Shown here: piece after piece, positions 394-12,343 of the stretch
Layout: the number at the start of each line of letters is the position of its first letter
How positions within the stretch are numbered: position 1 is the first letter of the stretch
Source of the DNA: Ulva prolifera
Lineage: Eukaryota; Chlorophyta; Ulvophyceae; Ulvales; Ulvaceae
Direction: 5' to 3'
DNA length: 64,000 bases
NCBI GenBank assembly: GCA_023078555.1
Contig: CM041201.1
Location: 5,463,172 to 5,527,171 of the forward strand
Program-made: the position numbers and the translations under genes
Notes under the pieces: generated by a model
Databases searched by the model: none
What the model was told of the DNA's origin: nothing
What the model saw: only the letters and a program-made list of their open reading frames with translations

Positions 394-3300
394 TCAGCGT
401 GAGACTGATATCCCGTTTTGTGACGCTAGCGCCGCCTCTAATTCTTTGACCCGATGCAACAGAGCACTCTCACGTGACGTGTCTGCTGCCGCCGCTGTCC
501 CAGCACGATTGCCACCACTCCCGTTTCCATTGGCAGCCGCTTCAGTCATCCCAAACTCGGCGCTGGCGCCATCTAAAGCCACAGATAGGTCTTGTAGAAG
601 GTCATCGATGTCCTCAATCCCCGCAGAAATCCTGACAAGATCATCCGGCAGCCCGCGTGCGGCGCGAACCTCAGGTGGGATTGAAGCGTGGCTCATGTAG
701 CATGGCATAGATATCAGACTGCTGACCGAACCGAACGACACTGTGATGCTGAACAGCTGTGTCTTCTCAACAATGTACTTGCTAATGGCGACATCTCCCG
801 TTGTGAATGACAGCAGAGCCCCTCCAGAGGTGGCCTGACGGGCATTTAGAGCCGCGTCCGCAGTACCTGGCAAATTTGCATAGTTGACCTGCTTCACGAG
901 AGGATGAGCTGCTAGGAACCGCGCGATCTCTTCTGCATTTTTCACAGCAGCATCCATCCGCAATTTCATTGTTTTCATTCCACGTAGAGCAAGCCAGCAC
1001 TCAAACGGAGGAAGTGCAGTTCCCTCCGCATTTTGAAAGAAGTAAACCCTGTGACAATGCTTCAATTTACTGCCCAAATTGGTGGAGACGGCAACGCACC
1101 CAGGTTTTCCGCAGAACACTGGTGATGCGGTTGACCTTCCCAGGACGCACATGCAGCAAACGGCAGGTGCGTGTTCTTGATAGATATACGCACACAACAC
1201 CAATTTGCAGCATATTTACCAAGAAAACACATACCGATTTGCCAGATCTACGTCCTTGAATGCCAGGATGCCGCCAGTCACGTCAGAGTGCCCGCCAACA
1301 AACTTAGTGGCAGACACCATACTGATGTCAGCTCCAAGCTCTAGGGGCTTCTGAAATATCGGTGTCATGATGCTGTTGTCCACCATCACAATTGCACCGT
1401 TGGCATGCGCAATGTCTGTCAATGCCTTGAGGTCACAGACCTGCATTGTATGTCAACTGCAGTGAGTGTGGTCCAGGGTGGGGATGATTTGATAGACGTC
1501 GCCGGACCAGACAAAGTCTGAAGGCACACCCGCATGCGAGGATTAGTCGGAGACTCTAAAATCACCAGCTTGGTTTTCTTGGGGACAAATGCGCGCTTGA
1601 AGGCATTTAGGTCTGTGTGATCCACATTAGACACCTCAATTCCAAGATCTGGGGCCACTGACCCAAGCAAACGCGACGTACCGCCATAGATATCATCACC
1701 TGCCAGGATGTGCTCACCTGCAATTTTAGTCATATAATACATAGCAGAGGTACATGAAGACAGCTGCAGCAAGAAGGCCTTTGCATGAGACGTGTCATCA
1801 CATTTGTAAGTGCCTGTGTCGATTTGGTCTCGGTGATACCATCGTGAGTCCAGGAAGCCATGTACTCCGAGGATTGGGGAATCTTAGACCGAAAAGCAGA
1901 GTGTACATGCATGGAAATTGTCAAGGCAGCTCACACCTGCCTTGACCAAACGGACAGCAGCGTTTATCGCTGCCATGCCCGTTACAAAAGCAAGTGAGCC
2001 CTCGCCGCCCTCCAATTCAGCCATGTTGCGTTCCAGAATTGCCCGTGTCGGATTGCCACTGCGTGTGTAGTCATATGGCCCACCTTGAGTAGCGCCTGGC
2101 TGCTTGAATGTTGCAGTCTGATAAATGGGCGCTGACATCGACATGGCCGGGTCAGAAACTCCATCGTCCGCAGGGCTGGGATGCACGAGACGTGTCGAGA
2201 CTCCCCACGTGTCTTTGCCCATCAACGGGGCATTCCCTGGTGCAGATGAAGCAATTTTTTCAAGCCCTTGCAGGAGTTTGGCTTCAACATGGATCTGACC
2301 TGAGGCAGCCGCAGCCGCCGCTTTCGCCGCGGAGCGCTCACCGGGCAGCAGAATTTCATCGACACCTGGCTGCCGTGCAGCTGACTTAACGCGATCGAGC
2401 ACAGCCTGGGCACGTCTAGCAAATGTGCCTGGTTCCTACATGTCGGACTGCTGTTGGCTCAAGTTGTCAAGAGGCTGGGAAATGAAGCTTGAGGCAAGTT
2501 TGATGCCAACTTTCAGTGTGGCACCACTCAAATGTGGCTCACTTTATGAGAACTTGGCCCTACAAGCATTATTGGAAATGTCAACAGCCCACCTGTAGCA
2601 GCGAGGGGTCGATTGCAATCATCAGGTTGCCCCAGCTCTTTTCCTCCATCTTATCAGCAACTGCAGCACCTACCAGTGGCCCAGCCAGCAGTTCCACGAA
2701 GAGTGCCAGAGCAGAACCCTTGTATGACCCGTCAAAAACCTTGAGGGCACCACCCGAAAGGACCGCATTGGGATCAGTGGTGTCGTGGCCCACCGAATCC
2801 ATGGCAACTCCAGGGGGGAGCTGTGCTCCTGCCGTCTTCGCCTCAAGCACACCAAACCATGCATAGGCTGCAGTGGCCATGTCCATTGTCACGGGGCCGT
2901 CCGCAGCAGGCACAGAAATGCATATCGGATTTGTCCCAAAAATTGCTTGCTTGGACCCTGCAAAATAATCGTTGAAATGGTGGAAATGGGCAGGGCACGC
3001 TCACAACTGCACGCAGCAGACGCAACAGGCAGTACGGCGCAGCCGCCAGCTGCAATGCGCGTTGTATCGCACCTGCTGGCGCTACAAACTCAGGTGACTG
3101 TGCAAGCACTACGCCAATCAGGCCTTGCTCTGCAAGTTTCTCGGCATAGTAGGCCAAGCAGCCCGTTGATGTATATGTATTGTTGGTACCTATGATGCCA
3201 AAACCGTGCTCCAGGCATTTTGCTGCAACCATTTCACGTGCTTTGCTGAGCACAAGCATCCCCGCATCGCCGTTACCGTTGATAATTGCCGACAAACGCG

Positions 3301-3872
3301 ATTCACGCTCGACCACAATTGGCCCGGCACCTTTAGCCCGATTCATGCCCCCTGACGTGATCTTGATGATCCCTTGATTGTTCTCACGTAGTTGTGCATA
3401 CATCATCACCTACAGTCAAGGCTCGGCTGCGCCAAGGCTGAATGAATCTGGAGACTGGCTGATGTGGCGCTGCAGCATCATGGTAGGTGCAAAACAATTG
3501 TCGTTGCGCCGCCATCATCAAATACCCACCGCTACTCTCATGCCATGCCAGGCGTGTGTTGCGTGTAGTTTGGTGCTGTTCAGATCCCGGGCAATGCGGT
3601 GGCTACTCGCGTACCTCCGTCAGGACGGATGCCTCGTCACGTGTGTAGCCCAAGGTCTGCAATGACGCCATGCACAGCCCGTTCAGCTCCTCAACGCTGA
3701 CTTGTGTGGTAGCCCTCATCATAACGGAATTGCGGCCTGTGTTTTTCAGTTGAATACTTCCTGGGCGGTCGGGCTGGGGGTCCGTGTGCGACACCAGCTG
3801 CACGGTAAAAGCGGGCCTCGCCACAGGGCTGCGTAGCCCATAAGACAATGCTACTGTGCGTAGTGGCGTCAT
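394..3872 (-). CDS. Fused Ldh2-family dehydrogenase :: cystathionine beta-lyase, 7 exons, 835 aa
   Basis: Exons on the minus strand: 3872-3615, 3409-3073, 2957-2593, 2435-1937, 1717-1530, 1440-1235, 1048-394. All six introns are GT-AG and every phase closes, giving 836 codons including the stop. Residues 1 to about 50 are Arg/Ser-rich with few acids, like an organelle presequence. Residues about 55-390 match the malate/L-lactate/ureidoglycolate dehydrogenase (Ldh2) family: the segment TNPICISVPAADGP, the MDMAT motif, and the family's C-terminal GVDEILLPGER at residues 344-354. Residues about 398-800 match plant cystathionine beta-lyase (cystathionine to homocysteine, pyruvate and ammonia): YQTATFKQP, DYTRSGNPTR, VDNSIM with Asp570, and the PLP lysine Lys595 in SATKF. 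A short heptad-like tail follows. Exon 4 carries both the Ldh2 C-terminus and the lyase N-terminus, so the join does not depend on guessing an intron. The usual HDSHG motif of Ldh2 enzymes reads ENNQG (residues 95-99), so the substrate of the first half is uncertain. Starting at the ATG at 3872 is a choice; the family match begins about 55 residues in. Confidence 0.85.

Positions 3873-8964: not shown

Positions 8965-12343
<3,379 letters not shown>

Follow-up and report, generated by a model that had tools for sequence, protein, structure and literature searches.

A green-algal fusion of a histidine-free Ldh2 domain with a cystathionine beta-lyase-type domain in Ulva prolifera

Are an Ldh2-type dehydrogenase and a cystathionine beta-lyase encoded here as one protein and, if so, what does the Ldh2 half do there? 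The question is raised by a locus on the minus strand, from 3872 to 394, of a 64,000-nucleotide stretch of Ulva prolifera DNA (the window), where a first-pass annotation had joined seven exons with matched phases into a protein of 835 residues. Recomputing the gene model reproduced it: the exon coordinates are correct, the open reading frame has 836 codons including one terminal stop, and all six introns have GT..AG ends and matching phases (0, 1, 0, 1, 0 and 2), in agreement with the phase 0 that had been given for the intron before the junction exon. The window as a whole yielded no tRNA and no Rfam family at the gathering level; at 11771-11866 it carries a perfect (CA)48 dinucleotide repeat.

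A single gene for both domains

The gene is laid out as follows.

3615..3872, minus strand: exon 1, predicted N-terminal extension (about 51 residues), then the beginning of the Ldh2 domain, with residue 52 at 3719
3073..3409, minus strand: exon 2, Ldh2 domain, carrying the Q98, K102 and S167 codons
3376-3374 (Q98), 3364-3362 (K102) and 3169-3167 (S167), minus strand: exon 2 codons at the places of AllD His44, Arg48 and His116
2593..2957, minus strand: exon 3, Ldh2 domain with cofactor positions T207, P209, D224 and K278
1937..2435, minus strand: exon 4 (the junction exon), Ldh2 C-terminus with cofactor position G352, linker and lyase start
2262 and 2189, minus strand: end of the Ldh2 Pfam match and start of the lyase Pfam match, both in exon 4; the linker is residues 379-396
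1530..1717, minus strand: exon 5, lyase domain
1235..1440, minus strand: exon 6, lyase domain with the SATK lysine K595 (1305-1303), aligned with Arabidopsis cystathionine beta-lyase
394..1048, minus strand: exon 7, C-terminal part of the lyase (Pfam match to 574), the tail with its short heptad-like motif, and the stop codon

The two domains meet inside exon 4, a single open frame that runs from Ldh2 sequence (EPGTF...GVDEILLPGER) unbroken into the lyase, with the junction peptides as first described; the preceding intron (2592-2436), if retained, adds five stops. Both Pfam matches are close to full length: PF02615 (Ldh_2) covers residues 58-378 and profile positions 1-332 of 333, at 255.7 bits against a cut-off of 38.8, and PF01053 (Cys_Met_Meta_PP) covers residues 403-776 and profile positions 4-380 of 381, at 429.7 bits against a cut-off of 27. 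The closest protein among the matches listed, Ulva mutabilis UM036_0014 (P0001; 86% identity over 94% of the query), has the same architecture. Its alignment to residues 52-835 is gapless on both sides until the last three, extra, residues of P0001, and because all six introns fall inside this gapless alignment, all six are supported by it. The locus is confirmed as one gene encoding one protein with both domains, and the joined state is conserved.

Two other possibilities were considered and set aside. Separate translation of the lyase from Met392 is contradicted by U. mutabilis, which has Ile at the aligned position, and a recent bacterial transfer of one half is contradicted by the presence of introns in both halves and by their similar GC3 (0.557 vs 0.541).

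Identity between the two Ulva proteins reaches 88.4% in the Ldh2 half (289/327) and 90.0% in the lyase half (351/390), with 3/18 in the linker and 26/49 in the tail, which at the sequence level is the pattern of two conserved domains with a free linker. Across the fusions within a coverage limit (24/31), mean identity to P0001 is 56.8% for Ldh2 and 61.7% for the lyase; the seven rows left out of these means include P0069 and P0070, whose Ldh2 halves are 41% and 39% identical and whose lyase halves are 59% identical. By these alignments, both halves are similarly conserved. The predicted N-terminal extension, which appears targeting-like by eye, is absent from the U. mutabilis model. At the other end, the tail (residues 777-835, window 573-397) carries the short heptad-like motif. 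A loose pattern for it matches 50 of 76 fused proteins and 7 of 15 selected unfused algal ones within their final 90 residues, and none of the 33 rows P0088-P0120, mostly from land plants, within their final 60.

Active sites of the two halves

The best solved relative of the lyase half is Arabidopsis cystathionine beta-lyase (PDB 1IBJ; 459.7 bits, the next scoring 320.5), a single-domain lyase of 464 residues, whereas the Ulva protein is such a lyase joined to Ldh2. The stretches YDYTRSGNPTR, SATKF and VRISAGIED match this proven plant enzyme, and the PLP-site residues agree between the two. Among 52 NCBIfam families TIGR01329 scores best, but its 474 bits lie below the equivalog cut-off of 487.5, and for this reason the half is called beta-lyase-type and not a proven equivalog. 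A six-frame search of the genome (88.9 Mb, 44 contigs), of a kind that may miss eukaryotic genes, found one other PF01053 gene, a 475-residue single open frame on contig 8 (L001 1237-2664) whose protein is closest to 1I41 (561.1 bits; next 300.5), which we take to be a plant cystathionine gamma-synthase structure. Since that gene is a cystathionine gamma-synthase, the fused gene is the only beta-lyase candidate found. The plant-type gamma-synthase is without introns in its 475 codons, as against six introns in the fused gene. The available part of the review PMC9426629 gives the products of cystathionine beta-lyase as homocysteine, ammonia and pyruvate, and the lyase half presumably does the same in the plastid, with no second enzyme of this kind in the cell.

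The Ldh2 half is less conventional. It is homologous over its full length to AllD, YiaK, HcxB, ComC (2X06) and DpkA, members of the Ldh2/L-sulfolactate dehydrogenase-like family, to which 13 PDB sequences match. For E. coli AllD, the available part of a crystallographic and mutational study (PMC3527362) gives His44 and His116 as invariant in its family alignment and suggests that each family member uses one of these two in catalysis; AllD H116A and R48A were without detectable activity, and H44A lowered kcat about 32-fold (1.76 vs 57.06 per second). In contrast, a MAFFT alignment places Gln98, Ser167 and Lys102 of the Ulva protein at AllD His44, His116 and Arg48, a pairing with which HMMER alignments agree (the query with 2X06 and 3UOE, and the subfamily profile with AllD), so that neither histidine position holds a histidine. 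The cofactor residues are kept: AllD Thr156, Pro158, Asp174, Lys224 and Gly306 correspond to T207, P209, D224, K278 and G352. The earlier description of two complete enzymes thus stands as regards length, both domains being full length, but not as regards the Ldh2 active site, where AllD's two histidines and arginine are missing. Because these catalytic residues are replaced, the half should not be called a lactate or malate dehydrogenase. The change was unexpected, was missed on first reading and is new here.

The replacement extends well beyond Ulva. Where the residue is present, Gln occurs in 56/63, Ser in 63/69 and Lys in 59/63 of the 76 fused proteins, and in 118/118, 119/119 and 118/118, respectively, of 119 single relatives; the cofactor residues of the fused proteins are similarly constant (Thr 67/71, Pro 71/71, Asp 73/73, Lys 74/74, Gly 72/76). 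Over eight positions (AllD 44, 48, 116, 156, 158, 174, 224 and 306), the signature QKSTPDKG is found in 50 of the 76 fused proteins, 14 of the other 26 being gapped, and in 111 of the 119 single relatives, and HRHTPDKG in 18 of 24 other Ldh2 loci, hand-picked from the 62 loci L026-L087. This shared signature argues against decay in Ulva and for an alternative site that a subfamily has conserved. None of the PDB family members that were aligned, a subset of the 13 that includes YiaK and HcxB, has the Gln-Lys-Ser pattern. Free-standing Ldh2 proteins of the "NNQG" type, from bacteria and from the stramenopile algae Ectocarpus and Chrysoparadoxa, have the same three residues at about 45-53% identity and, unlike the Ulva protein, no attached lyase. 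The bacteria with this histidine-free subfamily include Chloroflexota, Verrucomicrobiota and Patescibacteria-type organisms.

There are exceptions on both sides of this rule. Two of the 24 comparison loci, L041 (part of the outgroup in the quick Ldh2 tree) and L048, lie outside the NNQG subfamily and also lack both histidines, which shows that the histidine rule has exceptions there too. Among the fused proteins, three from Trebouxia have N, K and G at AllD positions 44, 48 and 116, P0058 has H, M and S, and P0069-P0071 have S, E, S or S, E, P and have lost the GTNP motif. P0069, P0070, P0071 and P0058 combine a degenerate Ldh2 half (GTNP changed to SASP or GANP) with a seemingly intact lyase half; because a degenerate half is still joined in these proteins, catalysis by the Ldh2 half does not seem to be needed in every case. 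The genome search revealed no second Ldh_2 gene in U. prolifera.

Spread and history of the fusion

The architecture is not unique to U. prolifera but, judged by homologous sequences, common to many green algae. Both domains are present in 76 of the best 120 of 429 homologues (P0001-P0074, P0077 and P0078), and a profile search added two further fused proteins, P0259 and P0265 (best 120 of 957). Every listed fused match whose organism name can be read comes from a green alga; the named sources comprise Ulva mutabilis, Raphidocelis, Astrephomene, Volvox africanus, Gonium, Haematococcus, Chlamydomonas incerta, Cymbomonas, Myrmecia, Trebouxia, Pseudoscourfieldia and Coccomyxa elongata, together with entries labelled Mesvir1 (a JGI model) and Tetstr1, which we read as Mesostigma viride and Tetraselmis striata. 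Lyases without Ldh2 among the matches listed come from Ostreococcus tauri, Chlorella vulgaris, Micractinium, Bryopsis, Pedinophyceae sp. and land plants; since the candidates of both searches were the proteins sharing most words, absence from these lists proves little. Four fused entries derive from MMETSP transcripts (P0004, P0013, P0016, P0043) and another, P0027, has a TSA-style name, so the joined reading frame is present in RNA-based data from relatives. Gene models without cDNA carry a general risk that annotation or assembly has merged two adjacent genes, and nothing specific points that way here; with the junction inside one exon, the gapless U. mutabilis alignment, and the joined protein in dozens of entries, some of them transcript-derived, such an artefact is in practice excluded.

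The statement that no fusion of these two families had been described holds for the literature searched, where the titles and the beginnings of abstracts (few subscription papers being covered) do not mention it, and where the available part of PMC9426629, a review of plant sulfur enzymes that includes Chlamydomonas, describes the lyase without a fusion; the accessible portions of PMC13034625, PMC5695019 and PMC1413533 contain nothing that alters the picture. It does not hold for public databases, which already contain the joined protein under names that include cystathionine beta-lyase, and for that reason we regard the fusion as unremarked rather than unseen. It is real, conserved and, as far as we have searched, unremarked, and it is less singular than was first thought.

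How the present distribution arose can be approached from the trees of both halves. A careful lyase tree was built from 49 of the 103 rows, probable truncations, near-copies and others having been removed. It rejects a single clade of fused rows (p-AU 2e-11), and its well-supported branches require the state to have changed at least five times; the tree of all 103 rows requires at least 11 changes. Some of the "unfused" models are probably truncated (P0240, which lies beside P0014; P0253, beside P0003; the partial P0084; and P0245, P0246 and P0247, which begin at the lyase itself), and these were removed from the careful tree. Gain and loss are indistinguishable from the tree counts and the deep branches are weakly supported; the simplest reading of the sequences would be one old green-algal fusion, followed by several losses or fissions.

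The Ldh2 trees offer a candidate for such a fission. In the careful tree (48 of 97 rows, His-type, degenerate and many other rows having been removed), eight of the 11 single-domain proteins P0124-P0134 nest inside the fused proteins beside the P0012 type, with support of 85/87, below the starred level; in the quick tree all 11 lie among the fused rows. The careful tree also rejects a fused-only group (p-AU 0.006, the group having been defined with a first tree already in view). On the lyase side, the unfused Ostreococcus-type lyases form the sister group of this P0012 type (100/99), and this parallel placing in both trees suggests that the fusion split there and that both pieces were kept, their origin from the same species being presumed. 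P0124-P0134 are, by this placement, a likely fission product. The N-termini of P0124 and P0125 look targeting-like by eye. A metagenomic lyase, P0249, has lost the Ldh2 core and retains 34 N-terminal residues that resemble the Ldh2 N-terminus (E 3e-4); it could be a snapshot of domain loss or a faulty gene model. Several verrucomicrobial or verrucomicrobial-like NNQG-type Ldh2 proteins (P0141, P0146, P0153, L019) fall among or beside the algal ones in both the quick and the careful Ldh2 tree, possibly through a transfer in one direction or the other.

What the Ldh2 half may do

Our overall reading, which we hold to be probable though far from certain, is that of a single protein in which a histidine-free Ldh2 domain of the NAD(P)H-binding type is followed first by a variable linker and then by a complete cystathionine beta-lyase-type PLP domain, and of an old green-algal fusion that has been repeatedly split or lost. 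We infer a functional Ldh2 half that binds NAD(P)H, since its conservation is close to that of the lyase and it seems to persist after fission in one lineage.

Pyruvate from cystathionine beta-lyase arises via 2-aminoacrylate and 2-iminopropanoate. We suggest, tentatively and with appreciable doubt, that the substrate which the Ldh2 half reduces is the three-carbon product of the lyase, a 2-imino or 2-oxo acid, with Gln98, Ser167 and Lys102 standing in for AllD His44, His116 and Arg48. The lyase half would release homocysteine, ammonia and pyruvate, the last via 2-iminopropanoate, and the Ldh2 half would reduce the released three-carbon product with NAD(P)H. The lack of a histidine acid could suit an imine that is already protonated, and Lys102 could bind the carboxylate or donate a proton. 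Disposal of pyruvate by the fusion, proposed when the gene was first annotated, is a possible role of this putative kind. A plain need for pyruvate reduction is made less compelling by the separate enzyme of Chlamydomonas chloroplasts, the pyruvate reductase Cr-LDH1, which the available part of PMC4722173 describes as NADH-dependent, with no activity found with NADPH. A simple pyruvate reductase is also disfavoured because the Ldh2 half is degenerate in a few fused proteins and because several green algae are listed with the lyase alone. A more elaborate form of the same proposal, to which we give a low probability, is that the histidine-free reductase receives its substrate, 2-iminopropanoate or pyruvate, directly from the lyase site and reduces it with NADPH, an arrangement that would have coupled early green-plant methionine synthesis to plastid redox and would later have been dropped by land plants and several algae.

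Bacterial gene neighbourhoods bear on whether the Ldh2 substrate is related to the lyase at all. Close relatives of the queries are rare, occurring in 1/286, 5/298 and 5/277 genomes with the E-values chosen and the seed genomes included. The NNQ motif is present at 16 of 17 bacterial loci, the match at L012 being partial, and among the 30 neighbouring open reading frames (the nearest ones, at part of the loci), five of which lack any Pfam family, no methionine or cysteine gene was found. A xylose-isomerase-like TIM-barrel gene lies directly upstream of an NNQN-type Ldh2 at L016, L018, L021 and L106, and no other neighbour is shared among the 17 loci. With no methionine or cysteine gene and so little shared, we do not derive a function from these neighbourhoods. 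It is conceivable nonetheless, if doubtful, that the Ldh2 half acts on a substrate unrelated to the lyase product and that the fusion serves joint expression and plastid import; the lack of sulfur-amino-acid genes at these loci, the xylose-isomerase-like neighbour at four of them, and the lyases without Ldh2 listed for several green algae and for land plants are all in keeping with this idea, whereas the persistence of the union across very distant green algae counts against it.

A somewhat less likely explanation is that the Ldh2 half binds its cofactor without catalysis and serves the lyase as a regulator or scaffold, for instance as a sensor of plastid NADPH. The replacement of both histidines and the essential arginine beside retained cofactor residues would fit such a role, as would P0069-P0071, in which even the GTNP motif is lost and the domain stays joined; it is harder to reconcile with the near-invariance of Gln, Ser and Lys in the 119 aligned single relatives, which have no lyase to regulate. 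That the Ldh2 half is the MTOB reductase of the DMSP pathway is very unlikely, since the fusion occurs equally in freshwater Volvox, Gonium and Raphidocelis, which to our knowledge are not known as DMSP producers.

Whatever its substrate, the NNQG subfamily departs from the proposal that Ldh2 enzymes act through a conserved histidine, and the fusion could serve as a marker with which to follow repeated loss and fission among the green algae. If reduction of the lyase product by the Ldh2 half proves true, the NNQG catalytic arrangement would be one undescribed for Ldh2 enzymes in the literature examined. If our overall reading is right, many green algae make homocysteine with a lyase that is permanently tied to a redox domain, a connection that none of the papers found in our literature search discusses.
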